Shown here piece after piece: positions 9,449 through 34,378 of a stretch of DNA of 64,000 bases. Each line of letters begins with the position of its first letter. Within the stretch, counting starts at the first letter, position 1. Source of the stretch: Longimicrobiales bacterium (lineage in GTDB: Bacteria > Gemmatimonadota > Gemmatimonadetes > Longimicrobiales > Gaopeijiaceae); the NCBI GenBank assembly GCA_029245345.1, contig JAQWPM010000012.1, forward strand, positions 558,001 through 622,000, read 5' to 3'. The notes under the pieces are model-generated. The model ran no database searches. It was not told the origin of the DNA and worked only from the letters and a program-made list of their open reading frames with translations. Made by a program: the position numbers and the translations under genes.

Positions 9449-9557
9449 CTACCTACTCTTCGCACGAATCGAAAACCTTGACACTCTTGAGTCGCAGATC
9501 GGAATTGGGGGTACTTCTCGTACGACGCAAGAGGTTGAAGGCAAGTCGAGCACAATT

Positions 9558-10118: not shown

Positions 10119-10144
10119 CCCGTCGTCCCGCGGTCAGGAGCGAC

Positions 10145-11387: not shown

Positions 11388-11418
11388 GATCTCTCTTCTC
11401 TGAATCGGCCCGAGCGCC

Positions 11419-11844
11419 TTAGGCGCCGACCCCGTAGCTCTTGAGTTTACGACGCCCTTCTTCCGTAATCATTTGATTGGTCCACGACGGACTCCAGACT
11501 TCTTCAATCTCCACCGTATCGATCCACGCCTCGATCTCGAGTCGGTCCATGATGTCTTCACGAATGAACTCCATGCAGGGGCATGCCGTCGCGGTGAACG
11601 TGATCGTAATACGCGCGACTCCAGCTTCGAGATCGACCCCATAGATCAGGCCTAGCTCTACGAGGCTGATCGGAATCTCGGGATCCAGCACCTCGTTCAG
11701 TGCGTCCCAAGTAGCTGCCAGCGGATCCGCAGGTGCTTCGGTGAGTGGCCCAGTCCATACGTCACGCCCACCACTCTTGTGTGAGGTGACCGCGAAAGGC
11801 AGACCCGCGTCTAACCGGGGACTGATGGGGAGTACTACCGTCAC
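11419..11844 (-). CDS. paaD: PaaD N-terminal DUF59 (MIP18-like) protein without zinc ribbon
   Basis: 141 residues. After about 40 variable residues comes a DUF59/MIP18 domain: LNEVLDPEIPISLVELGLIY, then TACPCMEFIREDI with the conserved Cys motif, and VWSPSWTNQMITEEGRRKL. PaaD is required for the PaaABC oxygenase, probably in metal-centre assembly. In the usual PaaD a CxxC zinc ribbon follows; here the chain stops at GVGA and the ribbon is encoded separately at 10145-10384. The ATG overlaps the paaA stop (ATGA). Confidence 0.82.
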   Translation of the reverse strand: MTVVLPISPRLDAGLPFAVTSHKSGGRDVWTGPLTEAPADPLAATWDALNEVLDPEIPISLVELGLIYGVDLEAGVARITITFTATACPCMEFIREDIMDRLEIEAWIDTVEIEEVWSPSWTNQMITEEGRRKLKSYGVGA

Positions 11845-12794
11845 GCGACAGATTTCCCATTCAGCAACCGCTTCACGTCACCGCGTGAACGCTGCACTGA
11901 TTCGACATAAATCTCGTTCATTGGTCCACGTCCCTTCCACCGTTTGAAGACGGTGTCCCAACTGATCTCGCCTTCCTCGAACATCCACCGCTTTTCTTCC
12001 TCGTTGTACTGACACGGGAACGGATAGTCGAGCACGTATTCACCCTTTTCCTCGTCCCAATGAGCAGGCGCGTCGAGACCGAGTTGCTCGCACAGGGGAA
12101 CGGTGGAAGCCATCCACACCTGCCGAAGCTGATCGTTGGTCAGGCCCTTGAGCTTGTAGTCGAGCTGACCCGAATGCCGCTTCATGTCGTCAGGAAGCCC
12201 GAACCACTCGATGGTCATTGGGAACATCCAATCGACACAGCGCTGTACCATCTCCTTCGCCTCGCCGCCCGCCTTCGAAAGACGTCTCATCCACACTTCG
12301 CCGTGGCGCAGGTGGAACGTCTCCTCCATCCCGATTTTCACCAGGGCTCTCTTGAGCGGCCCGTAGGAGGTGTTCTCATGAACGTCTGTCAGGAGCGTGA
12401 TACCCGCACGGTCGAAGAAACCGGTCGCGACAACGAGTTCTGCCCAATTGTCCAACGGCTGATCGAAGCCATAAGGGTGCTTGAATTCGTGAGGCTGCCG
12501 CCCGTAGACCAAGTGTTCTTTGGACTCCCCGATGTCCTCGAGCAAGCGGTACGCGATGTTCGCGTGCGCTAGTTCGTCTTGGATGATCGCATGGGCGCTG
12601 ACCTGAGTGTTGGTAGACGGCGCATACCGTGCCGCCATCCAATACGCCGGGGCGCTCATGAGCTCAGTGTCGGCCTGGACGGTGAGTTGAACTCGGAGTG
12701 CCTTGCGGTACCCCTCGGTCATTTCGTCCACAGACTCGACGATGTAACCGTCCTGGACCTTCGCGATCAGTTCTTCTTCGGTGAACTGCGACAT
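11841..12794 (-). CDS. paaA: Phenylacetyl-CoA epoxidase catalytic subunit PaaA
   Basis: 317 residues, full length for the catalytic diiron subunit. The ligands are visible: Glu44 (in ADTELMSAP), Glu74xxHis77 (QDELAHAN), Asp128 (GFFDRAG) and Glu158xxHis161 (MEETFHLRHGE). The C-terminal part keeps the PaaA pattern YPFPCQYNEEEKRWMFEEGE. It is the first paa gene of the transcript, 119 bases after the SufT-like gene, and overlaps the paaD start. An AGGGG site precedes the ATG. Confidence 0.93.
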   Translation of the reverse strand: MSQFTEEELIAKVQDGYIVESVDEMTEGYRKALRVQLTVQADTELMSAPAYWMAARYAPSTNTQVSAHAIIQDELAHANIAYRLLEDIGESKEHLVYGRQPHEFKHPYGFDQPLDNWAELVVATGFFDRAGITLLTDVHENTSYGPLKRALVKIGMEETFHLRHGEVWMRRLSKAGGEAKEMVQRCVDWMFPMTIEWFGLPDDMKRHSGQLDYKLKGLTNDQLRQVWMASTVPLCEQLGLDAPAHWDEEKGEYVLDYPFPCQYNEEEKRWMFEEGEISWDTVFKRWKGRGPMNEIYVESVQRSRGDVKRLLNGKSVA

Positions 12795-12913
12795 ACTGCC
12801 CCTAGCTTTATGACACTTCCATTCCGGTCAACGACGGAGTGTGATAAGTCTATGAGACTGGGCTGCGCCGGCAAGACGCCGCCAACACGAGTTACCAATC
12901 CCAACCGCTCACT

Positions 12914-13213
12914 TCAGAGCCCGAGCGACGCCCGGATGAGTGGATTGATACGGTCCGGGGTCCAAACAGGTTCGAACGTGAGCTCGACCTCTGCCTCATC
13001 GACACCCTCCACCGCTTGGATCGTTGTCTTTACATCCTCAACGATCTGTCCAGCGACGGGACAAAACGGCGACGTCAAAGAGATGGTCGCCTTCACGTTC
13101 GCGTCTGTGATGTCGATGTCGTAGATGAGCCCGAGCACGACGAGATCCAAACCCAACTCCGGATCCATCACCTGCTTGAGAGCAGTACGGATGTCCTTTT
13201 CCGTAACTGACAT
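12914..13213 (-). CDS. SufT-like MIP18/DUF59 iron-sulfur assembly protein
   Basis: 99 residues, a single DUF59 domain: ALKQVMDPELGLDLVVLGLI, then TSPFCPVAGQIVEDV with the conserved Cys, and ELTFEPVWTPDRINP. Such proteins (SufT, MIP18) help mature iron-sulfur or other metal proteins. It starts with a good AGGA site. Same strand and orientation as paaA suggest a common role in oxygenase maturation, but the gap of 119 bases leaves room for a separate promoter; a general Suf role is equally possible. Confidence 0.8.
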   Translation of the reverse strand: MSVTEKDIRTALKQVMDPELGLDLVVLGLIYDIDITDANVKATISLTSPFCPVAGQIVEDVKTTIQAVEGVDEAEVELTFEPVWTPDRINPLIRASLGL

Positions 13214-13260: not shown

Positions 13261-14439
13261 CTAGTGCTTTCGAACGAAAAGAACTGAAGTCTCGGTACGG
13301 TTGTCGCCTTGCGCCTTACGAATCGCCTTGTGGAGAGATGACACCATCTCACCGGAGGGTTTTCCATGAAGTTGCGCCAACAGATCAGCAGCCCCTAGAA
13401 AAAGCCCTTGAGATCCATGCGACAGCACGAACGCCGTGTCACCGCCGTTCAAAGCGAAGCTCTGCACGTTGTATTTGAAGCCGCCCATCATTCCGAGCGG
13501 AGGCCCTTGGGCACCGAATTGCTCGAAAGTGCCGTCGCGCCGGATGATGCCGCCTGGCACCTTCCCCGCACTGCCCCACTCAAGCCCTTCTTCGCCCACC
13601 GCCAGAACCCCCATCTGGACGAATTGGTCCAGGCCATCGATGCTCGCCTTCGAAAGAGCCTCGTTTGCGTGACGGAGTAAGTCGGCCACGGACGTGGACG
13701 TGGACGCCACGGCCCGAATCACGGCCCTTGCCGTACCTAGATGATACGCCGCTGGGAATCCGTCCTGAGCAACGTCAATGCTGATCACTGCCTTTCGACC
13801 ATCCGGCAAGTCGACCCAATCCCAAACCGAACCACCTCGGCCTTGATCTTCGGTCGTCGTGCCGGCGGCGATGTCGTGGCCCGCGAGCTTGGGCGCCGTT
13901 CTCGGCAACAAGCCTGCCTGCATAACCCGGCTGATCGCATGAGCGTCCGTGCGGGCGCTCGACGTTTTTTCCTGGGCCTTTTCCTTACTCGCGAAGCGAA
14001 TGCCTAGCGCGCGCAAGGCCTTGGAAAGCACCTGCATCATGCGGAGCGGCAAAGAGTCCCCGCCCAAGAGGGCCTGGAAGGCATCGCGCGATACCGTTAC
14101 TAACTGCGTGGTCTCAGAGGCTTTGGCGGTGGCCGAACGCGGCGCGTCATTGAGCAGGGCCATTTCGCCAAAACCCTCGCCCTTTCGGCGGACAGCGAGC
14201 CTCTCTTGTGATCCATCGGCGCGGGTCTTCGAAATTTCAATGGCGCCCTGGAACACGATATAAAACGCCTCTCCTGGCGCGCCTTCTTCAAAAAGCGACT
14301 CGCCTGCTCCGATGGTCTCACCGCCCACGATCGCAGCGATTCCACGTAGGTCATCGTCGGGGAGGCCTCTGAAGAGATCGACCTGTTGAACTAGATCCAG
14401 GACCTCTTCGGTCGACCATCCGTGAGCGTTTTCAGACAC
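13261..14439 (-). CDS. Cyclic-nucleotide-binding protein fused to a degenerate SpoIIE/PP2C-like domain
   Basis: About 392 residues from GTG 14439, which has AAAGG six bases upstream; the frame stays open to 15081 but that extension is not protein-like. Residues about 12-135 are a cNMP-binding domain with FGEMALLNDAPRSATAKA, keeping the Glu and Arg that bind the cyclic phosphate. A Lys/Ala-rich linker leads to a SpoIIE-like domain (about 165-390). There the usual metal motifs are altered: GGDYYD becomes GGSVWD, TDG becomes SHG, and the C-terminal DDxT becomes ETS. It may be an inactive phosphatase used as a sensor. It faces the adenylate-cyclase operon at 15172. Confidence 0.82.
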   Translation of the reverse strand: MSENAHGWSTEEVLDLVQQVDLFRGLPDDDLRGIAAIVGGETIGAGESLFEEGAPGEAFYIVFQGAIEISKTRADGSQERLAVRRKGEGFGEMALLNDAPRSATAKASETTQLVTVSRDAFQALLGGDSLPLRMMQVLSKALRALGIRFASKEKAQEKTSSARTDAHAISRVMQAGLLPRTAPKLAGHDIAAGTTTEDQGRGGSVWDWVDLPDGRKAVISIDVAQDGFPAAYHLGTARAVIRAVASTSTSVADLLRHANEALSKASIDGLDQFVQMGVLAVGEEGLEWGSAGKVPGGIIRRDGTFEQFGAQGPPLGMMGGFKYNVQSFALNGGDTAFVLSHGSQGLFLGAADLLAQLHGKPSGEMVSSLHKAIRKAQGDNRTETSVLFVRKH

Positions 14440-14721
14440 GACTCGCCTTTGGGGGCTATTGGAAGGCAATTTCGTTGGTTCGTTGCTTGAAGGCGGTCCA
14501 ATATAGGAGATGGAGAAGAGCGGTGGAAAGGGCACGGGAAGGCCGCGCATCACAGCTTCTCGCGGGCGACGCGCCTGAGTGGGCAGATTGGGATCAGTGG
14601 TCGCAGTTGGACCTTCCCCTGCATCGTCTTCCTCCAAGTCTTCAGCCCCGCCGCTGGCCTGAAGCTGTCCCGAACACTGCGCCGTGCCGCACCATCGGTC
14701 CGAGCGCCGGAGTAAGTGATC

Positions 14722-15045
14722 ATGTGGTACTTCGACACCCGTGCCGCTCGGATCTTCGTGCCCGTGGCCCTGGCAATGGTGGTTGTCGTTACGAGTTGCA
14801 TGGACGGCCCTGCGGCACCGGACGAATTGGCGAACCCTACGTTTGGGCCGGCGTTGGCGTTCGTACCGATGTTCAGCCTGGTGGGCCCCAGGCGGGTACG
14901 CTCGTGCGGAGCCAAGAGCAGCAAGCCGCCTTGGGGGAGGCATTCGACCTGGCAAACCGCTTCCGGTTCGTCGTGCTTCGACGAACGAGACCGTGATCGT
15001 CAGGATCGTGGCCTGCCCGAAAGCCTGCCGGCGTTGAACCGCGCA
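14722..15045 (+). pseudogene. Frameshifted remnant of a small lipoprotein gene
   Basis: A frame starting MWYFDTRAARIFVP has a lipoprotein signal (VVVVTSC) and continues DELANPTFGPALAFVPMFS. Coding character then moves to a second frame (QAGTLVRSQEQQAALGEAFD followed by LANRFRFVVLR) at about 14890, and to a third (STNETVIVRIVACPKACRR, stop near 15037) at about 14980. Two single-base shifts and an early stop indicate a decayed gene. The product family is unknown. It lies between the cNMP/SpoIIE-like gene and the MBL operon. Confidence 0.5.
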
Positions 15046-15171
15046 AGGCTGATCTGCTTCGGCCGGCTCTCTCTTCCGCAAGAATCCTCGCTATCTGCAA
15101 CGAACATCGTGTAAATTGAAAATGCGGCGCGGGTTTGCCCGCGTATCCGAAACACAGGGAGACAAGGACCT

Positions 15172-16080
15172 TTGACCCTCCAACCCGAGGCGGCGCCTTC
15201 GGCTGAGCTAGCCGAAGGCTCAGACGACGCAGTCATCGCACGGTGCTGGGGCACCCGTGGCTCGATCCCGAGCCCGGGGCCAGACACCGCCCGATACGGC
15301 GGCAACACGACTTCGTTCGAGGTCAGGTCCGGGGATACCCGCCTGATTTTCGACGCCGGGTCGGGGCTTCGTCTATTGGGATTGGAGTTGGTCAAAGACC
15401 CAGGGACGCTGTATCACATATTCCTGACGCACTTCCACTGGGATCATATCCAGGGCTTCCCGTTCTTCTTGCCGCTGTATCACCCGGAGATAGAGCTCAA
15501 GATCACGGGCCCCAAGCAGAACAACATCGATGTGCGAAGCCTCTTCGCAGGCCAGATGGGACCGATCTATTTCCCGGTCCCCTTCAGGGTGGTCGCTGCG
15601 ACGATGTCCTTCGCGCATTTGAATGAAGGTGAACTCCAGGTCGGCAGTGCCACGCTCAAGACCATGCGAGTCAAGCACCCCTCGTATGTAATCGGGTACC
15701 GGATCGAAGTGGGCAGCAAAGTCATCTGCTTCATCCCTGACAACGAAATCGAAGGCGACATATATGAAGTGGACGACGGCTGGTACGATCGGCTCGTTGA
15801 GTTTGTCCGGGACGCGGATCTATTGATCCATGACTCGATGTATACAGATGAGGAGTACCCGACTCGGAAAGGGTGGGGTCACTCGACCTTCAGCCAGTCG
15901 TTGAAGCTGGCCGAGGACGGAGGAGTCAAGAAACTCCTCTTTTTTCATCACGATCCCACGCGCTCGGATGACGAGCTCGACGAGATCGTGACCCGCGTCC
16001 GCGAAGATGCTCTCGCAAGGGGGAGTGCCGTTGAGATGGAAGCGGCCGCGGAAGGAATCGATATCAAGCTGGAGAAATAG
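15172..16080 (+). CDS. MBL-fold metallo-hydrolase
   Basis: 302 residues from a TTG start preceded by GGGAGACAAGGA. The fold begins with GTRGSIPSPG and TARYGGNTTSFEV and has the metal motif THFHWDHIQG (His87, His89, Asp91, His92), placing it with RNase Z/PhnP-like and signal-associated MBL hydrolases. The substrate is unknown; relatives with this opening often sit beside cyclic-nucleotide genes, so a phosphodiesterase role is plausible but inferred. It is the first gene of a five-gene operon, 2 bases before the caspase gene. Confidence 0.85.
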   Translation: MTLQPEAAPSAELAEGSDDAVIARCWGTRGSIPSPGPDTARYGGNTTSFEVRSGDTRLIFDAGSGLRLLGLELVKDPGTLYHIFLTHFHWDHIQGFPFFLPLYHPEIELKITGPKQNNIDVRSLFAGQMGPIYFPVPFRVVAATMSFAHLNEGELQVGSATLKTMRVKHPSYVIGYRIEVGSKVICFIPDNEIEGDIYEVDDGWYDRLVEFVRDADLLIHDSMYTDEEYPTRKGWGHSTFSQSLKLAEDGGVKKLLFFHHDPTRSDDELDEIVTRVREDALARGSAVEMEAAAEGIDIKLEK

Positions 16081-16082
16081 AC

Positions 16083-17966
16083 GTGAGAGGTTTTGCTTCT
16101 TTGCTCGTGATGGTGATGATCGTTCCGCTCATGGCTTTTGGCCCTGACGACCGGACTGCCTCCACACGATGGGCTTTTGTGGTCGGCATTTCTGACTACA
16201 TCAACTTCCCCGACGCCGAAGGCGGCGACCTGCCTGGCGCAGAGCACGACGCGCGCAGCATTCGCGATATGTTGCTCATGAAATACAACGTGCCGGAAGA
16301 GAACATTCTCATGCTTCTCAACCAGGAGGCCACCAGAGCCGCCATGGAAGAGGGCATCACGGGATGGCTCGTCGACAACGCACGGCCCGGCGATCAGATC
16401 ACGATCTTCTTCGCCGGACACGGCTCTCAGATGTGGGATGAAAGTGGCGACGAGGACGACGGGCTGGACGAGACGTTGGCACCCGCGGACGTCGATCCTT
16501 CAAGCACGGAGTTCGACATCAGCGACGACGTGTTCAACGACTGGCTCACCATGCTGCCGTCGGACAATGTGATCGTGTTCCTAGACAACTGTAATTCGGG
16601 GACTGGTACCCGTGCCGTGACCCCGTTCAGTCGAGGCCGACTCTTGGGTCGCGACATCAACACCATCGACAAGCCGTCCACGGTGTCACGCCGTGCATTG
16701 CCGGGCCAAGATGACGAAACTGGCTTCGACGCGGACGGCGCGCGTGTCCTCGAACTGGCCGCAGCCGAGCCGTTCCAGCAGGCTGTAGACGCGTTCTTTC
16801 CCGCCGGCGACGGCCAGGAGCCGTTCCACGGCGGGGCGTTCACGACTCACATGGTGCGTGAACTGTGGCGGGCAGATTCGGACGACACATACGAAGACGC
16901 ATTCCAGAACGCGTACGAAGCACTAAAACGCGCACGCTTCCAGCAAGACCCGCAAATCTCTCAGGACGTCGCCCTGAAGAACTTCCCGATCTTCTTCGTG
17001 GAAGACGGCGACGACGGTATCGTCGAAGGAATGATTCCCATCACGAGCACCAGTGGCTCGACAGCCGAACTGGCGGGCGGAATGGTTCTCGGCTTCACTC
17101 CGGGGTCAGTACTGGAGACTGAAGATGGGGCCAAGCTTGTCGTAGCGACGATCGGCCAGCGCACCACGACAGTAAACGTGGTGGAAGGCTCTGCGAGCGA
17201 GGGAGATCTCGCTCGGCTCGTCGGCTTCCGCTACTCGGATACGCCCCTCCTGGTGAACATCGGTAGCGCAGACTCCGACGCGATCTCTTCGCTGCGGCAA
17301 GCTCTCAATGGCGCAGCCGATGTCCGCCTGATCGAAGAGGAGGACGCATTCAGCCACCTCATCCTAAGACGCCTCGGAAACGAGACACGCGTTGTGGGAG
17401 CCGACGGATTCGTTCGACACGGGGGCCTTCCGGTCGGTTCCGACGCCGGCGCCCCTGTCGCAGACGCACTTTTACGGGAAGCGGCGGCAAGACGCCTCGC
17501 CGACATGGAAAACCCCGGTCAGCAGTACGGAGTGGAGCTCGCGATGACCGAAGGCCGGACATCGTTCGGGCTTGGCGAGACCGTGAGGTTCACCATCAAG
17601 TCAGAACGAGCCGGATATGTCACACTGGTCGACCTCGGTACAGACGGAACGGTCGCGATGCTGCTGCCGAATGGCGACCAGCCGTCCATGCGCATCGAAG
17701 CGGGTGGAACGCTGGACTACCCGAGCGCTGACAGCGGAGTAGACCTCCAATTTCTCGAGCCGGTCGGGCGTGGCATGGTCCGCGCCTTCGTGACCGACGA
17801 GCCGCTCGACATCACGATCGGTTCCGGTGAGACGTACGCATTTGGCGGCTCCGACTTCGCGCAGGTCGTGACGGCTGCGGTGCAGAAGGCAGCCGGCATG
17901 AGCGATGGCGCGGTACGCCTCGACTCGTGGGCTACGGCTTCCATCGTGTACGAGATCACGAACTAG
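16083..17966 (+). CDS. Secreted caspase-family (C14) protein with DUF4384 domain
   Basis: 627 residues. An N-terminal signal segment (LLVMVMIVPLMAFG) suggests export. A caspase-like domain (about 28-320) shows the catalytic dyad His113 in FFAGHGSQ and Cys170 in FLDNCNSGTG, with acidic DESGDEDDGLDETLAP between them as in metacaspases and orthocaspases, so Arg/Lys specificity is likely. A middle beta-rich region follows and a DUF4384 domain (about 480-585, FGLGETVRFTIKSERAGYVT and MLLPNG). Substrate unknown. It sits between the MBL hydrolase and the CHASE2 cyclase in one operon. Confidence 0.87.
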   Translation: MRGFASLLVMVMIVPLMAFGPDDRTASTRWAFVVGISDYINFPDAEGGDLPGAEHDARSIRDMLLMKYNVPEENILMLLNQEATRAAMEEGITGWLVDNARPGDQITIFFAGHGSQMWDESGDEDDGLDETLAPADVDPSSTEFDISDDVFNDWLTMLPSDNVIVFLDNCNSGTGTRAVTPFSRGRLLGRDINTIDKPSTVSRRALPGQDDETGFDADGARVLELAAAEPFQQAVDAFFPAGDGQEPFHGGAFTTHMVRELWRADSDDTYEDAFQNAYEALKRARFQQDPQISQDVALKNFPIFFVEDGDDGIVEGMIPITSTSGSTAELAGGMVLGFTPGSVLETEDGAKLVVATIGQRTTTVNVVEGSASEGDLARLVGFRYSDTPLLVNIGSADSDAISSLRQALNGAADVRLIEEEDAFSHLILRRLGNETRVVGADGFVRHGGLPVGSDAGAPVADALLREAAARRLADMENPGQQYGVELAMTEGRTSFGLGETVRFTIKSERAGYVTLVDLGTDGTVAMLLPNGDQPSMRIEAGGTLDYPSADSGVDLQFLEPVGRGMVRAFVTDEPLDITIGSGETYAFGGSDFAQVVTAAVQKAAGMSDGAVRLDSWATASIVYEITN

Positions 17967-18019
17967 GTAATGGCCGAACTAGGCCGATCCAAGATCGGCG
18001 ACCAGGGCCAGGAACGGCT

Positions 18020-20302
18020 GTGAAATACCGTCGATTCCTGGCCCTGGCCCTCATCGTCGTTGTGTCCGCAGGCTTGGCGACGCTGTCGGAAACCTTCGGC
18101 GGCCTAACTGGCGTGGAGCAGCTAGAGAATCGGCTTCTCGACGCACGCCAACGGACGACTGAGGAGTCCTTCCAATCTGGGGTGGGTGAACGGGCGTCGG
18201 ACAGCGACGTCGTCATGGTGTTGTTCGACGACTACACGGTCATGGACGAATTCGATGGCTGGGCATGGTACTCGCCGGCCTCGCGCGCCCACATCGCCGA
18301 GGTCATCGACGCCCTCGCGGGGGCGGGTGCACGCACCATCGGACTCGATGTCTTTCTAGACAAGCTCTACCACCCACGGCTGAAAGCGATTGAAGATGGT
18401 GACGGCCTGCTGCAAGCTGCAATCGAGCGTGCGGGCAACGTCGTACTCGTCACCCCAATCCAGGTCACGGACTCTGGGCCAGTATCGTTCCCCCCACACC
18501 CCTACTTCGCCGACGTAGCCGCGGATATCGGGACGGCTGAATTCCCGACCGCGTTCGAGACGTTCCGCTCCGGCACTCTCGCCGCTCGGTCTGCAGGCAC
18601 GCTGGAGCCGTCGTTCGCGCTCGCGATGTACGGCCACTACAAGGGCTTCGACGTCGACTCACTCTTGCTGGAAACGCGCAAGTTGGGACGGGTCCCGATT
18701 CCCGGGATGCCGGACAACGTAGGGAGGGTTCCGGGAGATTGGTTTGAAGAAAATGCTGCCTCAGAAAGCAACGTAATCCCCTTCATGATCCGTTATGTCG
18801 GGCCGCCATCGAGCTCAGTAGAGGGTGGTCCGCCGGGCACGTTCCAAACGTTCGGATCGTTCTTCGTGCCACTCACCGCAGCCTTCCTGCCGGAGGCGTT
18901 CGAGGACAAAGTCGTCCTGATCGGGACCGGTTGGCACGATGAAGACAAGTTCCGGACGCCGTTTTACGGTTTCGAATACTCCCCTCTGCCAGATACGACA
19001 GCGACCGTAGCCCAGGGATCAGCGGCAGTCACCGCAACTGAACAATACAGCTGGATGTACGGTGTTGAGATCCATGCCAATTCAGTGCAAAACATGTTGG
19101 ACGGGGAGTACGTGACGCCGCTCAGTGACACGAAGGAAATCTTCCTTCTTTTGTTCGCTGCCCTGCTCACCGGTGGCATCACATTCTGGCTGGGGCCCGG
19201 GTGGGGCGGCGCAACGACGATCTGCGCAGTCCTAGGTCTGATGATCTACGCGTTCTGGGCTTGGACCGGGAGCGCATATGGACCCGGAGTCACCTACTTC
19301 TCTCTTGGAGAGCGATTCACCTGGGTCCCGATCGTTCTCCCTGCTCTGTCGGCCATCTTCTCCTATGTCAACTCGTCCGCTTACGTGGCGGTTATTGAGG
19401 GGAAAGAGAGGCGCTTCATTCAGGGCGCATTCGGTAAATACGTTTCGCCAGACGTCGTCGCGGACCTGGCAAACAACCCAGGGCAGCTTCAACTCGGCGG
19501 TCAAAAACGAGACCTGTCGATTCTGTTTTCAGATCTCGCCGGATTCACGACGCTCTCCGAACGGATGGACCCCGCCGACCTCCTGGCACATCTCAACGAG
19601 TATCTCACTGAGATGACCCAAGTCGTCATGGACGAAGAAGGCACGCTCGACAAATACATCGGTGACGCCATCATGGCGTTCTGGAACGCCCCGCGTGATG
19701 TGCCGGACCATGCAAACAAAGCGCTTCGGACGATGATCCTGTCTCAGCGAAAAATGGGCGAACTCAATCGACGCTGGGCTGCGAACGACCCCGACCACGA
19801 AGATCTGGTTGTCAGAATCGGTGTGAACACCGGTGAGGTCGTCGTTGGCAACGTGGGCGGTGAGAACCGATTCGATTATTCCGCAATCGGGGATGCAGTG
19901 AACCTGGCTGCCCGGCTGGAGCCCGCGAACAAGTCGTATGACACATTGAATATGTGCTCACAATTCACGCTGGATGCCGCTGACACCAACGCTTTTCGCA
20001 TTCGCGAGCTCGACCTGATCGCGGTGAAGGGCAAGAAAAAGCCGGTTCAGGTGTATGAAGTGCTGGAGTTGACCGGAGTGGCCCTCCCAGACGCGAAAGA
20101 GAAAGCAGTTGCGGCGTACGACCTTGGGATGACAGCGTACAAGAAGCACGATTGGACCTCGGCCCGAGACCAGTTCCTAGCCGGACTCGCGGCATGCCCT
20201 GACGATGGTCCGTGTCGGGTGTACGCGGAGAGGTGTGCTGCACACCTTGAAGATCCGCCGCCGCCCGATTGGGATTTCGTGGTGCGACGGACGACAAAGT
20301 AG
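18020..20302 (+). CDS. CHASE2-domain class III adenylate cyclase
   Basis: About 760 residues from GTG 18020 (CAGGA seven bases upstream). Layout: an N-terminal membrane anchor, an extracytoplasmic CHASE2 sensor (about 35-340), two or three membrane helices (about 370-460), then the cyclase domain (about 495-680). The cyclase keeps both metal Asp residues (Asp505 in FSDLAGFT, Asp549 in KYIGDAIMAFW), Lys545, Asn628 and Arg632; the adenine-contact position is Ser621 in DYSAIGD, as in class IIIb adenylate cyclases. The C-terminus adds a short TPR-like segment. It would make cAMP in response to an envelope signal, plausibly read by the cNMP-binding protein at 13261-14439. Confidence 0.9.
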   Translation: MKYRRFLALALIVVVSAGLATLSETFGGLTGVEQLENRLLDARQRTTEESFQSGVGERASDSDVVMVLFDDYTVMDEFDGWAWYSPASRAHIAEVIDALAGAGARTIGLDVFLDKLYHPRLKAIEDGDGLLQAAIERAGNVVLVTPIQVTDSGPVSFPPHPYFADVAADIGTAEFPTAFETFRSGTLAARSAGTLEPSFALAMYGHYKGFDVDSLLLETRKLGRVPIPGMPDNVGRVPGDWFEENAASESNVIPFMIRYVGPPSSSVEGGPPGTFQTFGSFFVPLTAAFLPEAFEDKVVLIGTGWHDEDKFRTPFYGFEYSPLPDTTATVAQGSAAVTATEQYSWMYGVEIHANSVQNMLDGEYVTPLSDTKEIFLLLFAALLTGGITFWLGPGWGGATTICAVLGLMIYAFWAWTGSAYGPGVTYFSLGERFTWVPIVLPALSAIFSYVNSSAYVAVIEGKERRFIQGAFGKYVSPDVVADLANNPGQLQLGGQKRDLSILFSDLAGFTTLSERMDPADLLAHLNEYLTEMTQVVMDEEGTLDKYIGDAIMAFWNAPRDVPDHANKALRTMILSQRKMGELNRRWAANDPDHEDLVVRIGVNTGEVVVGNVGGENRFDYSAIGDAVNLAARLEPANKSYDTLNMCSQFTLDAADTNAFRIRELDLIAVKGKKKPVQVYEVLELTGVALPDAKEKAVAAYDLGMTAYKKHDWTSARDQFLAGLAACPDDGPCRVYAERCAAHLEDPPPPDWDFVVRRTTK

Positions 20303-20362
20303 AAGATTAGATAGATAGGGGACCAGCCCTCGGCTGACCCGTTAAAAGAAGTGGAGAGGAAA

Positions 20363-21286
20363 ATGCGGAAGTTCCTACACATGCTCGTCGGTATCTCCCT
20401 CGTGGCCGCTGCACCTTTGGCTGCTCAAGACTCTCCGGCGGCGTTGATCATTCGCGTCCAAGGGGATGTTCAGATACGTCAGGGAGGCGCAGCTCCTGGA
20501 CCGGCGACAGCCGGTGCTCGGCTGTCGGTTGGCGACGAAGTTCTTCCCGGCACCGGCGCTCGTGCGACGCTCATCGTGCCATCAGGCGCCACTCAACAGA
20601 TCACGGAAGCGACCACCGTCAGGGCTCCTCAGGGAGGCACGACGGGTGACCTGTTCCAGCGCGCCATGGCTACGCTCGCTCAGGCCGCTTCCACGGACGC
20701 GACCGCTGGAGGGCGTCAGGGCATGATCCGGCCGATTCCTGGACAAACCGCGCTCGTCCTTCCGCGAAACGGACTGACCATCAACTCAGACCGGCCGACT
20801 TTTGTGTGGACCGCCAGTGAGGGCCAGATCTACGAACTGATGCTCAGGAAGGTCGACGGCGGACGCCCTGAGATTTTTGAAATTGGCACAGACACGACCT
20901 GGACATATCCCGACGATCTCGAACCGCTCGAGTTCGGCGCAACGTATTCATGGACGATTTTTGTAGGGGGAAGAAGGGGTGGCCGACCGCTGCCCCAGCA
21001 GGAATTCCGTGTCATCGACATCGTCGCATTCGCCGAACTGACCTCGTTTATGGACGAGATCCAACTCCTGGGTCTCGACCCGATGGACGACGGGCTCTTC
21101 CTGACAGTGGTCGCACTCCGTGACCTAGAACTGTTCTACGACGCCGATCAGGCCATGAATGACCTCGAGGGCCAAGGTGGCATGAGTGGCGACCTCTACA
21201 TGCTGCGTGGTGAGATCCTCAACACGTTGGGCCGCGAGGCCGATGCACGTGTTGCGTTCGACAAGGCTGACGCAATAATGCGATGA
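20363..21286 (+). CDS. FecR-like secreted protein
   Basis: 307 residues from ATG 20363, with GGAGAGG directly upstream. A signal peptide (SLVAAAPLAAQ) is followed by a FecR-type beta domain: VQGDVQIRQGG, GARLSVGDEVLPGTGARATL and VPSGATQQI. The middle (about 130-225) resembles an FN3/Ig strand set (RPTFVWTASEGQIYELML, ATYSWTIFVGG), and the C-terminus has a TPR-like helical pair. FecR-domain proteins beside CHASE2 cyclases are a recurrent partnership; periplasmic sensing is inferred. The stop overlaps the next start (ATGA). Confidence 0.82.
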   Translation: MRKFLHMLVGISLVAAAPLAAQDSPAALIIRVQGDVQIRQGGAAPGPATAGARLSVGDEVLPGTGARATLIVPSGATQQITEATTVRAPQGGTTGDLFQRAMATLAQAASTDATAGGRQGMIRPIPGQTALVLPRNGLTINSDRPTFVWTASEGQIYELMLRKVDGGRPEIFEIGTDTTWTYPDDLEPLEFGATYSWTIFVGGRRGGRPLPQQEFRVIDIVAFAELTSFMDEIQLLGLDPMDDGLFLTVVALRDLELFYDADQAMNDLEGQGGMSGDLYMLRGEILNTLGREADARVAFDKADAIMR

Positions 21287-22926
21287 GTGACAACAACGGG
21301 AACGACATATCGCTTCAGCAGGAGCTGGAACGAACCCGAGAGGAGTTGACTCAGGCGCGGTCCGCACTCCGCGAGTTGAACAAGATCGGGATGGCACTCA
21401 TGAGCGAGCGCGATCCCGATCGGCTCTTGGGGCTGATTCTGACCCAGGCTCGCACTCTGACCGGGTCAGACGCTGGCAGCCTCTACCTCGTCGAGGAAGA
21501 CGCCTATGGAAAGGACGTACTCCACTTCCTCCGGAGCCAGAACGACACACTACCGGAGTTGTCGACGCCCAATTTCACGCTTCCACTCGACGACCGCAGT
21601 ATCGCCGGCTATGCGGCCCTAACAGCCGAGCCCCTCCTGATCGACGACGTGTATGAGATCCCCGCCCACACGCCGTACGGCTTCAACAAGGGATTCGACG
21701 AGGCGAATGGATACCGTGCCAAGTCGATGCTCACCGTCCCGATGGTCGATCACAAAGACCGTACGGTAGGTGTGCTCCAACTCATCAATCGCAAGACCGA
21801 GCCGAGCGCGGAGATCCGTACGGACGAGGACGCGGACAAGTGGGTCCTGCCCTACTCCGAGCGAGAAGTGAACATCGTGTCGTCGCTAGCAGGGCAGGCA
21901 GCCGTCTCGATCGAAAACGGCCAGCTATACCAGGACATCGAAAACCTCCTGGAAGGCTTCATCAAGGCGAGTGTCACCGCGATCGACCGAAGAGACCCCG
22001 CGACATCCGGGCACTCCGTTCGAGTCACGGAGCTCACATGCGATACCGCCGAAGTCATCAATCAACAGACGGAGGGGCCGTTCGCCGACGCCAGCTTCAC
22101 TGCCGAGGAGATGAAACAGCTGCGTTATGCCGGACTGTTGCACGACTTCGGTAAAATCGGGGTGCGAGAGGCGACCCTCGTGAAGGAGATGAAGTTGCCT
22201 CCCCAGATGGAAGCACGCGTCGAGAGTCGCTTCGGCCTCATCAAGAAGACTCTGGAAGCCGACGCAGCGAACGCGAAGGCCTTGACGCTGCAGGCCGCCA
22301 CGGGCCCAACGAGTGCCGGGGACGAGCTACCCGAGATCGAGGCGAAGCTGCAGGAAGATCTCGAGACACTCCGCCAGTACCGCGAGGCCGTCGAGCAAGC
22401 CAACATCCCACGGGTTCTCGACGAAGACGCAGCGGGAATCCTCAAGGACATCGCGAAGCGCAAATTCGTTGATCCGGATGGAAACGAGCAGACGTATATC
22501 ACCGCGGACGAGCTCCACTTCCTCTCTATCAAACGTGGCACGCTCGATGAAGCGGAGAGGAAAGAAATCGAGTCCCACGTGGTGCACTCGTACGACTTCC
22601 TACTCAACATCCCGTGGACGGACGAACTGTCACGAATCGCTGAGATCGTTCGCGGCCACCATGAGAAATTGAACGGAAAGGGATACCCCGACGGCGTAAC
22701 CAAAGAGGCCCTGTCGCTCGAAACCCGCATCATGACCGTGTGCGATATTTTCGACGCCCTGACCGCGTCCGATAGGCCTTACAAGAAAGCAATGCCCGTC
22801 GAGAAGGCACTCCAGATTCTCCGATGGGAAGCCGAGGAGGGCGGCTTGGAGTCAAACATCGTCGAGCTCTTCGCAGAACATCAGATCTACAAGAAGGTCC
22901 TCGAAAAGGACTGGCGCGAGTTCTAG
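21283..22926 (+). CDS. GAF/HD-GYP-domain phosphodiesterase-like protein
   Basis: 547 residues, no signal peptide. A short coiled coil (about 8-35), a GAF domain (about 40-210, with ITQARTLTGSDAGSLYLVEE-like and AKSMLTVPMVDHKDRTVGVL patterns), then HD-GYP: SGHSVRVTEL, LLHDFGKIGVRE, HHEKLNGKGYPDG and MTVCDIFDALTASDRPYKK. HD-GYP proteins hydrolyse cyclic di-GMP. Unusually, about 110 residues of charged helices are inserted between the HD motif and the segment before GYP. It is the last gene of the operon, overlapping the FecR gene by four bases. Confidence 0.87.
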   Translation: MSDNNGNDISLQQELERTREELTQARSALRELNKIGMALMSERDPDRLLGLILTQARTLTGSDAGSLYLVEEDAYGKDVLHFLRSQNDTLPELSTPNFTLPLDDRSIAGYAALTAEPLLIDDVYEIPAHTPYGFNKGFDEANGYRAKSMLTVPMVDHKDRTVGVLQLINRKTEPSAEIRTDEDADKWVLPYSEREVNIVSSLAGQAAVSIENGQLYQDIENLLEGFIKASVTAIDRRDPATSGHSVRVTELTCDTAEVINQQTEGPFADASFTAEEMKQLRYAGLLHDFGKIGVREATLVKEMKLPPQMEARVESRFGLIKKTLEADAANAKALTLQAATGPTSAGDELPEIEAKLQEDLETLRQYREAVEQANIPRVLDEDAAGILKDIAKRKFVDPDGNEQTYITADELHFLSIKRGTLDEAERKEIESHVVHSYDFLLNIPWTDELSRIAEIVRGHHEKLNGKGYPDGVTKEALSLETRIMTVCDIFDALTASDRPYKKAMPVEKALQILRWEAEEGGLESNIVELFAEHQIYKKVLEKDWREF

Positions 22927-22934
22927 ACCCGCTA

Positions 22935-23963
22935 CTACCGGCGGATGTACTTCCTCAGCATGCGCGGCCCGACTTCGGCTCCATACACGTTCCCCATGGC
23001 ATCGACGGCGACGCCCTCCGCCCCGCTCGTACCGGAGTTATCTTGGTCCGGCTCGGGATCGGGGATGAAGGCCGTCACCCACCCGGTCTTCGCGTCGCCA
23101 ATATAGATGCCGCGCTTCCATCCCGGATTCCGCCGCATGTTGGACTCGGAGTCTGCAGCGTAGAGCACGTCGTCCTTGATGAAGATGCCGCTCAATCTGC
23201 TGAACTGCGTCCAGGTCGCGAGGTGCGCGCCTTCCTGGTCGAAGATCTGGATCCGGTTGTTGTAGCGATCCGCAACGAACAACCTGCCGTCTGAATCCAT
23301 AGCAAGGCCGTGCGGTTCGTCGAACTCACCGGTGCCTCCCCCCGTTGTGCCCCACTCCAGGAGGAAGTTGCCCTCCGCATCGAACTTCATGATGCGATTG
23401 TTGGCCTCGCCGCGACCTCGATGCCCGTCCGCCACGAAGATGCTCCCGTCCGACGCGACATAGACATCGTTCGGTCTGGTGAAACGCTGCCGGTCCGTCC
23501 CGGCCACGCCGTCCTCACCAAGTGTCATGAGCAACTCACCTTCCGCGCTGAACTTGAGCACGACGTGCCCGCGCCCTTCCGGCGTCTCACCGAAGCCCAC
23601 GGCGTCCGCAATCCAAACGTTGCCCTCGGTGTCGACGTGCATCCCGTGGGGCCACACTACCTGACCCGCCCCGAAGCTGGCTAGAAGGTTGCCGTCGAGG
23701 TCATAGCGGAGAATCGGATCGACGTCCGAGTCCTCGCACGAATTCGCGCCGCACCGGTCGGCCACCCAGATGGACATTCCATCGGGAGCCGGATAGACGG
23801 CGCTCGTCGAGCCCCATGTACGCCCATCAGGGAGTTCAGCCCAAACTCCCTCGACAGTTTCATAGGGGTTTGGAGCCGTCATTTGGGCTGTCAGGCCCTC
23901 AGCTGCGGGGACTGCAAGCATCAGTGAGGCGACAGCCGCACCAAGACGAAGCGAACGGGTCAT
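22935..23963 (-). CDS. Secreted NHL/six-bladed beta-propeller protein
   Basis: 342 residues from ATG 23963, which has GGAGG seven bases upstream; the longer frame from 24008 is not needed. After a signal peptide (VASLMLAVPAAEGLTAQ) come NHL-type blades: VWPHGMHVDTEGNVWIADA, FTRPNDVYVASDGSIFVADG, FDEPHGLAMDSDGRLFVADR and GAEGVAVDAMGNVYGAEVG. The pair Cys-Gly-Ala-Asn-Ser-Cys near residue 75 may form a disulfide. The pattern resembles peptidylglycine lyase-like and other NHL proteins; no activity can be assigned. It converges with the HD-GYP gene (8-base gap). Confidence 0.82.
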   Translation of the reverse strand: MTRSLRLGAAVASLMLAVPAAEGLTAQMTAPNPYETVEGVWAELPDGRTWGSTSAVYPAPDGMSIWVADRCGANSCEDSDVDPILRYDLDGNLLASFGAGQVVWPHGMHVDTEGNVWIADAVGFGETPEGRGHVVLKFSAEGELLMTLGEDGVAGTDRQRFTRPNDVYVASDGSIFVADGHRGRGEANNRIMKFDAEGNFLLEWGTTGGGTGEFDEPHGLAMDSDGRLFVADRYNNRIQIFDQEGAHLATWTQFSRLSGIFIKDDVLYAADSESNMRRNPGWKRGIYIGDAKTGWVTAFIPDPEPDQDNSGTSGAEGVAVDAMGNVYGAEVGPRMLRKYIRR

Positions 23964-24042
23964 GCCAATACCTCCAACGGAGTGTTCAACGTGCATGATC
24001 AAGGGCAATAGAGTGGGGACGCAGCCGTATCCGCGCCAGGAA

Positions 24043-25380
24043 TCAGGGGGTGCCTACCCGACGCCGGTCGACCCAAGCGTAGCCGAGTCGCATGATCCAG
24101 GCCGCCCCAAACACGATCAGTCCGAGCATCATCCAACGGAGTGCTGCCGCAGCAAACACAGCGTCTAGGGCTGGCGCGCGGAAGGTGAAGCGTAAGAGCC
24201 CGCTCCCCCTCTCGAGCATCCAGTGCCACCCGGTGTGAGCAAGGACTGCTGACAGCACCATGATCCCCGCAACCTCCGGGAGGACTTTGCGGAAGAGAAG
24301 CCCAAGCAAGGGTACTGTAACCGCCAAGACAAAAAGCTGACCGAGTTCGACCCCCACGTTGAAGGAGAGCAACGACGTGATCAGATGTGTCCCCGCGAAT
24401 TGCAGTGATTCAGACAGCGCGAAAGAAAATCCGAAGCCGTGCACGAGCCCGAAGCCGAACGCGATCATCCATCGCCTGGCGAGCTTGGCCCCAAGGATGT
24501 TCTCGAACGCCATGAAGACGATCGACAGAGCGATTAGCGTCTCGATTAGCGGCGGAAACCAGAGAGCGTCGGGGGCCAATCCAAGCGCCGAAGCGATGAG
24601 CGTTATGGAGTGGGCCACAGTGAACGCTGTGACGATCGGCACGAGGCTCCAGAAGCTCCTGAATGGCACCACCAGACAGAAGAGGAACAGGAGGTGGTCA
24701 ATGCCATCCAGGATGTGGCTGAAGCCCAGAGAGACGAACCGCAACGCCGCCTGATGCCACCGTGGATCGAGCCGGACGACCCCGGGATCTCCGGAGTACT
24801 GGAACGCCCTCTCGGCCCCTCCCGGGGGCAAGAATCGGAGCACCGTCACGGTCCGAAGTCCCAAGTGTGCCATTCGGGCATCGATCGAAAAGTCGGATGA
24901 CTCGGAGGCAATGGGTACTTCGAAGAGCACGTCCAGCATGGCTTGGCCAGGAGGCAGCTCTACGTCGTTCGTGAGCCTGGGCGCAGCCATATGCTCCAAT
25001 GCAACATCGTAGCTGGAGAAAGAACGATCACTCGGCGCCGATATACGGGCAGCAACGAACTCGACCTCTTGCAGGGCAATGCCATTTTCTTGGAAGCCGA
25101 CGTACTCCCCGATCCACTGCATCGCCGCATCTCGAATCAACTGATCTACCTGGTCAATTTGCAGGTACCCTGGGCCCTCCACGGGGAACTCATAGTCCCG
25201 CATCGCAGCCAAGGGAGCTCGCACCAGGAAGCGGAGCATGGAGCCCTCAGGCTTCACGAACGCTTGGACTGTGACATCCGCGGGGATCTCGTGGGCTTCC
25301 GGCCACGAGGGCACCAAGAGCACGAGCGCAACGACGATCGCCGCGATGCGCCGCGATCGCGTGGTATCAGGAATACTCAT
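24043..25380 (-). CDS. HupE/UreJ_2-family membrane protein
   Basis: About 445 residues. A signal peptide (VVALVLLVPSWPEAHE) leads to an exported domain of about 180 residues, then seven or so membrane helices with family motifs GFSHILDGIDHLLFLF, TAFTVAHSITL, FGFGLVHGFGFS and FNVGVELGQL. HupE/UreJ proteins are associated with nickel or other metal handling, but the role of the long-N-terminus branch is unknown, and no hydrogenase or urease gene is near. The start is uncertain: ATG 25380 lacks a good ribosome site and the frame is open to 25422. Confidence 0.8.
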   Translation of the reverse strand: MSIPDTTRSRRIAAIVVALVLLVPSWPEAHEIPADVTVQAFVKPEGSMLRFLVRAPLAAMRDYEFPVEGPGYLQIDQVDQLIRDAAMQWIGEYVGFQENGIALQEVEFVAARISAPSDRSFSSYDVALEHMAAPRLTNDVELPPGQAMLDVLFEVPIASESSDFSIDARMAHLGLRTVTVLRFLPPGGAERAFQYSGDPGVVRLDPRWHQAALRFVSLGFSHILDGIDHLLFLFCLVVPFRSFWSLVPIVTAFTVAHSITLIASALGLAPDALWFPPLIETLIALSIVFMAFENILGAKLARRWMIAFGFGLVHGFGFSFALSESLQFAGTHLITSLLSFNVGVELGQLFVLAVTVPLLGLLFRKVLPEVAGIMVLSAVLAHTGWHWMLERGSGLLRFTFRAPALDAVFAAAALRWMMLGLIVFGAAWIMRLGYAWVDRRRVGTP

Positions 25381-25520
25381 GCGAACATGGTGAGTGTCGA
25401 AGGGATCTTCGGCTAGCCCCACGTGTCGGCGTCCTCACCCCGATTGCAGGAAGTCGGCACGGTGCGTAGCCTATCCACGCACTCATACAATCTGTCCTGC
25501 TGTTCGCTCATTGGAGAAGG

Positions 25521-31898: not shown

Positions 31899-33692
31899 TC
31901 AGCCGCCAGGGCCGTCCGGCTGGCTACCACCGGTAACGATGGCCAACGGTATGTCCCCGAACCCACTTCGTTGTGGATTCTGCTGACCGTTGGTCGCCTG
32001 TCGAACGTTGTTCGAAACGTGATCGAAGACCTCGGTGAATGTCACGATGCCATCATTGTCGGCATCTGCAGCACCCTTCAACCCTTCAAGAAGGAAGTGG
32101 GTGAACACACCGTTTCCACCCCACCGTTCGTCCTCTTGAGCGAACTCGTTCGTGTCCGCTGCCGTCATCATCAAGCGGCGGGACGGGGTGAAGAGCTGCG
32201 CAAATCCACCCGAGATGGCGTTGCTGCCACCCCCTCCAACCGCATCACCGTCCGCCGTACCGGCCGAATGACACGCATCGGCGATCACGATTACCCGCTC
32301 TGATGAGATCTGACGGCGTAGCGCGGTCTTAACATCCCACATCGGGAATCCGGTGGACGCCAACGCGTTCAGGTCCGAGTCCGCAGGCAACAGGTACAGA
32401 TTGTCCGGGCGGCCCGGATCCGGCGCACCATGTCCCGCGAAGTAGATGACGACCAAGTCGTCCCAGTCCGCTTGCTGCAAGAACACGAAGAGCGCCTCGC
32501 GCATCGCAGCCCCGGTTGCCTGTTCGTTTTCGAGGTAGAGTACCTCGTCGAACGGACCCGCAGCATCACTCTGCAAGAAATCGCGGATCGCCCGAGCATC
32601 CATGGGCGCACCTTCCAGGTCTGGAATCTCCTCGGACTGGTATTCACCGACACCGACGACCACCGCCCAACGTTTGTCGATGCGCGGTGCAGCTACGGCC
32701 TGAGTCGTGGAGCCGTCAGTACCACTCGCGACGATCAGAACACTGTCCTGACTGACAGGGAGCGTGAACTCACGACGGAAGATTTGAGCTTCAGCCGGAT
32801 CCACACGGATCCGGGCCGCTTCTTCGGCATCGAGTGGTTCCAGCAGCGCAGGCGCGCCGTTCACCTCTACCCCGCTCGTGTTTCCGACCACGACGCCCCG
32901 GAGCTCAACCGTGTTCGTCACTCCAGAGAGGCTGTTGCCACCCTTTGCAACAACACCGATACCTCGGGTCGCCGCGCCACTAGCGGGCTTCACGTCAGCT
33001 CGAATCACGGCAACACCTGGTGCTTCACCGCCACCGCCATTAGTGCTGGCGGCCTGCGAAGCGGTCGCATGCTCGACCGAACCGGGCTCGGGAAGATTCC
33101 AGTACGCTGCTTCCATCCAAGTACGCGCTGACCAATCGTTCATCACGCCGCCGATGAACTGAGTGATGACATCCTGCGTCACCTGGCGGACGACCTTCGC
33201 CTTCGCAGCCTGGTCCGTCGCTTCAAGAGCGCGACCACTCGCCACAGCCTCCGACACGACGTCGCCGTGGTCCAAGCGAAGCGCCCGCACCGAAACCTCC
33301 GCGGTCGCGGTGATCAGAGTTCCGTCCACCGGGTCGGGGCGCGTCGCGTAGTCCGCGACCCCGAGAATCAAAAGTTGTGCTCCCCAGTCACGACCGAGCT
33401 GCGTCGCCGCACCATCGTTCCCGTTCATTGCCGCGGTCACCAGATTCTGTGCCGCTTCGTCGATGGCCAGAGCCGGATCAATAACCGGGAATCCGGCCTC
33501 CCGCAGGAAGCTCGTCATCTCCCGCGACGAAACCTTCCCCCGGCCGTCCTCCTGAATGAAAACCATAGCCCGGGGCAACTCACCCTCAAACGAGATGGCT
33601 TGGGCCGCGACGTCCACGGGTTGAGCCAAGAAGGCCAGCGCCAACGCCAACGTCGGCAGAATCACCACAACTTTCAGAGTATTGATACGCAT
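31899..33692 (-). CDS. Secreted caspase-family (C14) protein with CsgG-like N-terminal region
   Basis: 597 residues with signal peptide (LALALAFLAQPVDVAAQ). Residues about 35-185 resemble a CsgG/FlgO-like lipoprotein-type domain (AMVFIQEDGRGKV, WGAQLLILGVADYA); a glycine-rich linker and beta segment follow. The C-terminal caspase domain (about 338-590) has DKRWAVVVGVGEYQ, catalytic His421 in YFAGHGAPDPG and Cys474 in IADACHSAGTA. Its start overlaps the stop of the upstream CsgG-like gene by one base, so they are coupled. Substrate unknown. A second caspase gene of different architecture lies at 16083. Confidence 0.87.
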   Translation of the reverse strand: MRINTLKVVVILPTLALALAFLAQPVDVAAQAISFEGELPRAMVFIQEDGRGKVSSREMTSFLREAGFPVIDPALAIDEAAQNLVTAAMNGNDGAATQLGRDWGAQLLILGVADYATRPDPVDGTLITATAEVSVRALRLDHGDVVSEAVASGRALEATDQAAKAKVVRQVTQDVITQFIGGVMNDWSARTWMEAAYWNLPEPGSVEHATASQAASTNGGGGEAPGVAVIRADVKPASGAATRGIGVVAKGGNSLSGVTNTVELRGVVVGNTSGVEVNGAPALLEPLDAEEAARIRVDPAEAQIFRREFTLPVSQDSVLIVASGTDGSTTQAVAAPRIDKRWAVVVGVGEYQSEEIPDLEGAPMDARAIRDFLQSDAAGPFDEVLYLENEQATGAAMREALFVFLQQADWDDLVVIYFAGHGAPDPGRPDNLYLLPADSDLNALASTGFPMWDVKTALRRQISSERVIVIADACHSAGTADGDAVGGGGSNAISGGFAQLFTPSRRLMMTAADTNEFAQEDERWGGNGVFTHFLLEGLKGAADADNDGIVTFTEVFDHVSNNVRQATNGQQNPQRSGFGDIPLAIVTGGSQPDGPGG

Positions 33693-34378
33693 TATTCACC
33701 GCCTCCCAGTCGAACCAAGGCACGCTCGGCATCGATGTATCCCGGGTAAAGCTCAAGCGCAGCATTGTACTGCTCCACTGCTTGGGCCGTCTCACCCTTG
33801 TCCTCATAGTCCACCGCCCGACTGAACGCGATGATCGCCGGGACCGGGATCCTGGCAACTCCAGGTCTATTGGACGGTGCAACGAGTTCGAGCTCGCTAC
33901 TGAATTCATCGGCGATACTCACGAGGACTGAGAGCAGCTCGCTCGTCTGATCCATCTTCTTGAGTACAGATATGATCTCTGACGTTTCGACATCGACTGC
34001 CCGGATATCGATTCGCAGGTTGTTCGCAATGCTTGCGACCTGCCCATAGAACATGTACTGGGCTCCCAGCAGCTTGCCGATCTCAACAGCGCTGCTCTCG
34101 TCAACCCGGCCGGACAGCGCCAGTCGCTGCTCCTGCAGGAGGTCATTGAGCGCCTGGCGTTCCACAACCACGATCCCTTCACGGCCACTGAACTCTGTCA
34201 CGAGCATGGCGGACACCGCCTTGCCTAGGTTCACGGAACTGCCGCCGTCGCCGAGCATGAAGCCGTTGAAATCCATCACGGCGATGGTCGGGATTGCCGG
34301 ATCCTGGGCAGACGCATCCTGAACGCTTAGCGCCGCAATCGCGATCACGGCAACAAGAACGGTCTTGTAGGTGCGCAC
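33692..34378 (-). CDS. CsgG/FlgO-like periplasmic protein with TPR
   Basis: 228 residues. Signal peptide (VIAIAALSVQDASAQ) without a lipobox. The domain has TIAVMDFNGFM, AVSAMLVTEFSGREGIVVVE and RQALNDLLQEQRLALSG, then IGKLLGAQYMFYGQVAS, the pattern of CsgG-family proteins that open outer-membrane secretion channels or bind peptidoglycan-side complexes. A single TPR ends the chain (AIIAFSRAVDYEDKGETAQA). It is the first gene of a two-gene transcript with the caspase gene. Confidence 0.78.
   Translation of the reverse strand: MRTYKTVLVAVIAIAALSVQDASAQDPAIPTIAVMDFNGFMLGDGGSSVNLGKAVSAMLVTEFSGREGIVVVERQALNDLLQEQRLALSGRVDESSAVEIGKLLGAQYMFYGQVASIANNLRIDIRAVDVETSEIISVLKKMDQTSELLSVLVSIADEFSSELELVAPSNRPGVARIPVPAIIAFSRAVDYEDKGETAQAVEQYNAALELYPGYIDAERALVRLGGGE

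Follow-up and report, generated by a model that had tools for sequence, protein, structure and literature searches.

A CHASE2 adenylate cyclase locus with a secreted caspase in Longimicrobiales, a proposed envelope-sensing cAMP module

In Campylobacterota, CHASE2 cyclases are clustered with genes for phosphodiesterases, FecR and tetratricopeptide repeat (TPR) proteins (PMC9239204). In magnetotactic bacteria the gene of MtxA is followed by that of a CHASE2 cyclase (PMC4439547, PDB 4z29), and the CyaD1-Clr-SMc02177/02178 system of S. meliloti comprises a CHASE2 receptor cyclase, a reader of cyclic nucleoside monophosphates (cNMP) and a FecR-domain protein (PMC5498481). A comparable locus was analyzed in a Longimicrobiales bacterium (assembly GCA_029245345.1, contig JAQWPM010000012.1, positions 558,001 to 622,000; this whole stretch of 64,000 nucleotides is referred to as the window), where it occupies positions 13261-22926. 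Clusters of CHASE2 cyclase, FecR and phosphodiesterase genes are known; new here are the added caspase and the proposed output to cyclic di-GMP (c-di-GMP). The locus is interpreted, with moderate confidence, as an envelope-sensing module of cyclic AMP (cAMP) signaling.

Gene content and relation to described systems

The six genes listed in an earlier note on this DNA, five closely spaced on the plus strand and a divergent cNMP-binding gene, are borne out by the list of open reading frames (ORFs) and by intact catalytic motifs; the gaps of 2, 53, 60 and -4 bases between the plus-strand genes are correct with the cyclase GTG at 18020 and the FecR ATG at 20363. Pfam matched the named domains, namely, MBL (metallo-beta-lactamase), Peptidase_C14 with DUF4384, CHASE2 with Guanylate_cyc, GAF with HD, and cNMP_binding. 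The FecR-like protein has no Pfam match, although profile and fold comparisons group it with MtxA. A degenerate SpoIIE domain, a second caspase with a CsgG-like gene, an unlinked cNMP-GGDEF gene and the status of the cyclase as the sole complete one of class III had been overlooked.

The class III CHASE2 adenylate cyclase (18020..20302, plus strand; CHASE2 1e-27, Guanylate_cyc 3e-23) has intact catalytic residues, the motifs DLAGFT, LDKYIGD and FDYSAIGD being retained in relatives, and, where the substrate is contacted, Lys and Ser/Thr of the adenylate type; besides it, the genome contains one truncated class III fragment. In PADLOC, the cyclase domain was matched by PycC models (3e-31) and a match to a caspase model was obtained as well, which would suit a Pycsar-type or caspase-type antiphage system. 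Membership in Pycsar was rejected on account of the adenylate-type residues and the lack of an adjacent transmembrane or TIR cNMP effector; the caspase is exported, inheritance is vertical within a housekeeping neighborhood, and the only defense neighbors detected by PADLOC were weak generic PP2C and caspase matches. An antiphage function is therefore highly improbable, and the earlier note rightly claimed none, there being no sign of defense.

The secreted FecR-like/Ig/TPR protein (20363..21286, plus strand) is MtxA-like. Its AlphaFold2 (AF2) model (predicted local distance difference test, pLDDT, 83) comprises a beta domain (residues 27-80), an Ig/fn3 domain (131-217) and TPR-like helices (220-306). 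MtxA is the best profile match (E 4e-5), and its C-terminal domain is also the relevant fold match over both domains (TM 0.64 by target, 4.5 Å); the other top fold matches are generic fn3 tandems with poor superposition. TPR content near the cluster is represented by these helices and by a TPR/CsgG gene at 34577.

As in the Campylobacterota clusters (PMC9239204), the CHASE2 cyclase gene lies beside genes of a predicted cAMP phosphodiesterase and a FecR-domain envelope protein, but the phosphodiesterase of the locus is of the MBL fold, and caspase-DUF4384, GAF-HD-GYP and cNMP-pseudoSpoIIE genes are added. The adjoining FecR-like/Ig/TPR protein, with its matching fold, resembles the MtxA system, in which, unlike in the locus, no caspase is known and the motif RQGMIRP is absent. 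The CHASE2 receptor cyclase, cNMP reader and FecR-domain protein are shared with S. meliloti CyaD1/Clr, where, however, the reader is a Crp regulator and no caspase, MBL or HD-GYP protein is described. In Bd1971 and Lcd1, where cAMP and c-di-GMP converge (PMC6717892), a c-di-GMP enzyme is likewise coupled to a sensor domain for cAMP; unlike these, the genome studied fuses cNMP to GGDEF and has a separate GAF-HD-GYP gene in the cAMP operon. The caspase shares the HC dyad p20 domain with prokaryotic metacaspases and orthocaspases, for which one caspase-CHASE2 fusion has been reported from a cyanobacterium (PMC3501461, PMC2853523), but, unlike those described, it is a separate, exported protein with DUF4384, always encoded beside a CHASE2 cyclase. 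Within the library searched, no paper was found that describes a caspase as linked to the operon of a CHASE2 cyclase.

Linkage of the caspase, cyclase and FecR-like genes

The caspase gene (16083..17966, plus strand) encodes a secreted metacaspase-type protein (Pfam C14 5e-14, DUF4384 5e-14) with an N-terminal hydrophobic signal, matching metacaspases of the PDB with E values of 1e-24 to 1e-10. The distribution of the cyclase was followed in 98 relatives, 154 genomes of the order and 395 genomes drawn across the phylum. The cyclase orthologue was found in 13 of the 98 relatives, all 13 with the caspase and the FecR-like gene (cyclase-caspase co-occurrence, Fisher 2.6e-15; this p-value, like the one for cNMP-GGDEF below, overstates the evidence because the genomes are related and not independent). 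It is present in 22 of the 154 genomes of the order, and no orthologue was found outside the order at E 1e-100 among the 395 phylum-wide genomes. The earlier note had made its circuit depend on homologues adjoining in related genomes, and this is what neighborhood maps showed: the caspase is beside the cyclase in 22/22 loci, FecR in 21/21 testable loci, and MBL is beside the caspase in 20/21. In the genomes of the order the cyclase never occurs without the caspase and FecR where the contig permits the test. Pairwise dN/dS (ratio of non-synonymous to synonymous substitution rates) of the six genes is mostly 0.06-0.30, and the orthologous clusters in 22 genomes together with these low values indicate conservation beyond chance.

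The His-Cys dyad of metacaspases and orthocaspases (H113/C170) is kept in 20 of 21 caspase orthologues. The exception is G048, where Cys is replaced by Ser and the cyclase and FecR genes are missing from the whole assembly; this is a single case, on a contig of 4.3 kb. Persistence of the caspase ORF there with Cys replaced would suit a chaperone or scaffold of CHASE2/FecR rather than a protease, but the dyad is otherwise kept, and the replacement occurs precisely in a genome that has neither cyclase nor FecR, which makes such a role rather improbable. Stronger decay of the caspase in G048 was considered and dropped; dN/dS in one and the same pair was 0.30 for the caspase and 0.25 for HD-GYP, which is not decisive.

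The MBL and HD-GYP genes also occur without the caspase, cyclase and FecR-like trio: as pairs in G004, G033, G038, G063, G079 and G084, and with a CsgG homologue between them in other Gemmatimonadota, namely, G096 and many Gemmatimonadaceae. In many of the latter, a scan of GTDB with an HD-GYP profile and neighborhood maps revealed a one-strand arrangement that lacks caspase and cyclase, Crp-type cNMP regulator (cNMP and helix-turn-helix, HTH) - MBL - CsgG - GAF-HD-GYP. Within the family to which the window belongs, G004 and G038 carry cNMP - MBL - HD-GYP, in G004 between the same flanks (MIP18-type and PFK genes) and without the trio. Because MBL-HD-GYP is found without the trio both at the same flanks and in other loci, two blocks are distinguished: an older one of MBL and GAF-HD-GYP, often with a cNMP-binding gene and occurring alone, and a caspase-cyclase-FecR cassette, set between MBL and HD-GYP or lost as a block.

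Hydropathy predicts N-terminal signals on the caspase, the FecR-like protein, the second caspase and the CsgG-like protein, membrane segments around CHASE2 in the cyclase, and neither segments nor signal in the cNMP, MBL and HD-GYP proteins. As far as hydropathy indicates topology, the evolutionary trio would coincide with the exported set, and the caspase would be located in the same compartment as the FecR-like protein and the loop of CHASE2.

The second secreted caspase (31899..33692, minus strand; Pfam C14 1e-19) has a C-terminal catalytic domain with the H/C dyad kept, and is paired with a CsgG-like secreted protein (33692..34378, minus strand; Pfam CsgG 3e-16); its dN/dS values came from partial or mixed matches and were discarded. 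Since both genes are directly convergent with the HD-GYP gene in six genomes (G007, G003, G019, G002, G080 and G036), positions 31899-34378 are assigned to the neighborhood, while in the window a 9-kb stretch (22935-31630) parts HD-GYP from the second caspase. The NHL, HupE/UreJ, PP2C and other genes of this stretch are an insertion relative to the relatives. More broadly, window positions 13214-37255, from the MIP18-type gene to PFK, are a hot spot where gene content differs between members of the family, with FecR only, MBL only, MBL and HD-GYP, or the full set. Genes of paa-like type (PaaA/PaaC/PaaD) are located at 10384-13213; they immediately follow the cNMP gene downstream and share its strand. 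No RNA elements or tRNAs were found in the window.

Predicted reading and turnover of cAMP and coupling to c-di-GMP

The MBL-fold hydrolase (15172..16080, plus strand) is a predicted class II, YhfI-like cAMP/cGMP phosphodiesterase with an invariant metal site, HxHxDH (H87-H92), H169, D221, H237 and H259. Its AF2 model (pLDDT 82) has 1zkp and B. subtilis YhfI (6kns) as best fold matches (E ~1e-16 to 1e-15), followed by RNase Z, yeast PDE1 and, lower still, Apyc1; the HxHxDH motif with a YhfI/RNase Z fold is that of class II phosphodiesterases. NCBIfam model NF041851 gives 45 bits, far under its cut-off of 400. RNase Z membership was rejected, as curated models score far under cut-off, and so was Apyc1-like identity, Apyc1 being placed far behind YhfI and RNase Z in the fold ranking. 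YhfI, a cAMP/cGMP phosphodiesterase, prefers cAMP/cGMP (PMC9117128), and degradation of cAMP is the favored prediction for the MBL enzyme.

The GAF-HD-GYP protein (21283..22926, plus strand; Pfam HD_5 3e-29, GAF 6e-14) has an insert of ~110 aa and invariant HD, HH and GYP residues, and is predicted to be a c-di-GMP phosphodiesterase. HD-GYP enzymes normally hydrolyse c-di-GMP, so this gene suggests cAMP/c-di-GMP crosstalk; of the earlier claim that both enzymes may destroy cyclic nucleotides, the part on MBL agrees with the YhfI-like fold, but HD-GYP does not point to cAMP destruction. In the Acidobacteria loci L095, L107 and L085 a CHASE2 cyclase is divergent from the same GAF-HD-GYP family, and in L095 FHA and PP2C genes lie between the two.

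The divergent minus-strand gene had been assigned a cNMP domain, correctly, but a SpoIIE-type PP2C domain was missed, and the gene extends over ~13261-14430, not 13261-15081: the ORF reaches 15081, but conservation begins only near residue 215. The cyclic-nucleotide-binding domain (14065..14310, minus strand; residues 258-339; Pfam cNMP 3.6e-21), with a profile near those of PKA regulatory subunits, retains the binding cassette FGEMALLNDAPRSAT, conserved among orthologues. In the SpoIIE/PP2C-like domain (13303..13806, minus strand; Pfam SpoIIE 5e-15) the metal-binding aspartates of SpoIIE/RsbU are lost, the GGD and DG acids being gone in all orthologues and H replacing the catalytic D of the SDG motif in alignment to solved SpoIIE. 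An active phosphatase was rejected in view of the lost acids, and the domain is probably a pseudophosphatase. The gene is present in two tandem copies in L038 (G036; 9513-12223). A large Big_2/SdrD-type lipoprotein gene lies between cNMP and MBL in L031, L033, L034, L035 and L038; it has no detectable match in the window, perhaps apart from a remnant at 14716-15114.

The divergent position of the cNMP gene, the second caspase and CsgG-like gene nearby, and the Crp-type factor in a similar place in Gemmatimonadaceae would agree with the caspase as an output, its expression or release being controlled by cAMP via the cNMP protein and leading to programmed death or envelope remodeling. However, the cNMP protein has no DNA-binding domain, and the caspase goes with the cyclase and FecR rather than with cNMP or MBL, both of which exist without it. 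The signal sequence likewise speaks against the earlier suggestion of the caspase as cAMP effector, since cAMP would be made on the cytoplasmic side and a periplasmic protease cannot be its direct target. An output role is unlikely.

An unlinked gene ~135 kb before the window (G000:C12:422321-423253; L160:2322-3257) encodes a cNMP-GGDEF fusion of 311 aa, probably a cAMP-controlled diguanylate cyclase. It is the best cNMP match in a genome with four GGDEF matches and about ten cNMP domains, and combines GGEEF with the cassette FGEMALLNDKPRSAT, of the same type as in the window cNMP protein. Orthologues were found in 10 of the 22 genomes that have the cyclase and in 3 of the 132 that do not (Fisher 9.5e-8). 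Loss of the two loci coincides in G001, of the same genus (L158 / L051), where a clean deletion of 5-6 kb has fused the cNMP gene with the 3' end of the cyclase, having removed the cNMP domain, MBL, the caspase and most of the cyclase, and where cNMP-GGDEF is a pseudogene, interrupted by a stop and a frameshift and with GGEAF in place of GGEEF. A stop is also present in G033, without cyclase; the cassette is degenerate in G039 and GGDEF in G155, and the gene is intact in G038 and G158, both <80% complete.

Some observations weigh against a single circuit. Neighboring housekeeping genes are syntenic as well, which makes synteny a weak argument by itself; the distances of the five plus-strand genes correlate with one another at 0.76-0.91, only slightly higher than the 0.67-0.85 obtained with the flanking MIP18-type gene; and in G067 the trio is divergent from MBL-HD-GYP. 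Nine cyclase-positive genomes (genera g6, g34), and likewise G037, G067, G062 and G080, have no intact cNMP-GGDEF or none at all, and the GGDEF motif of G018 is GGQEF; the link is therefore not obligatory, and a universal cNMP-GGDEF partner was rejected, since g6, g34 and genomes outside family f1 lack the gene or carry a degenerate copy. Gene content, linkage, conserved motifs, the two blocks, the co-loss and the pseudogene are observations; enzymatic activities, topology, cAMP as the ligand, signal direction and the protease substrate are predictions. Mere co-inheritance through a stable chromosomal region, as the synteny of flanking gyrA, paa-like and PFK genes might suggest, nevertheless has a low probability: the trio stays together while gene content between the same flanks varies widely, G067 has the same parts differently arranged, MBL-HD-GYP pairs are also found at distant loci, and the unlinked cNMP-GGDEF tracks the cyclase. 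One linked circuit, as first proposed, is supported by the co-occurrence test, the kept cNMP cassette and the YhfI-like MBL fold.

Proposed mechanism and the RQGMIRP linker

In the envelope-sensing module, the CHASE2 cyclase, the FecR-like/Ig/TPR protein and the metacaspase-type protease would together read a periplasmic or outer-membrane condition. Because all trio proteins have an exported part, the caspase is placed on the periplasmic input side, where it may process the FecR-like protein or the CHASE2 loop. Cytoplasmic cAMP would be bound by the divergent cNMP protein and broken down by the YhfI-like MBL enzyme. With its phosphatase domain probably inactive, the cNMP protein may act as a binding or partner-switch element. 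Coupling to c-di-GMP would proceed via GAF-HD-GYP and, in most family members except those of two genera, via the unlinked cNMP-GGDEF.

A candidate protease site is the motif RQGMIRP (20714..20734, plus strand), within residues 114-124, the sole long internal low-confidence linker of the FecR-like model. It is identical in 20/20 caspase-cyclase loci, still present in G001 and partial in the G020 remnant. It was not found in MtxA or in the solo FecR genes at the same site in G027, G023 and G057, of which the latter absence is suggestive only, because solo genes are more divergent overall. Orthocaspases are described as cleaving after basic residues (PMC6426788). It is possible, though doubtful, that the CHASE2 cyclase is switched when the periplasmic caspase cuts the FecR-like protein on the C-terminal side of an Arg of RQGMIRP, and that envelope damage is in this way passed to cAMP and then to c-di-GMP.

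Little is known about which substrates prokaryotic metacaspases cleave in nature and in which pathways they act. The consistent linkage of this caspase to a receptor cyclase and to a secreted partner with a candidate motif makes substrate, sensor and read-out testable together. Cleavage of the FecR-like linker, if true, would mean that a bacterial relative of the caspases carries out regulated proteolysis with both its partner and its substrate known, and the locus would provide a compact example in which cAMP feeds into c-di-GMP, supported by the co-loss of an unlinked gene.

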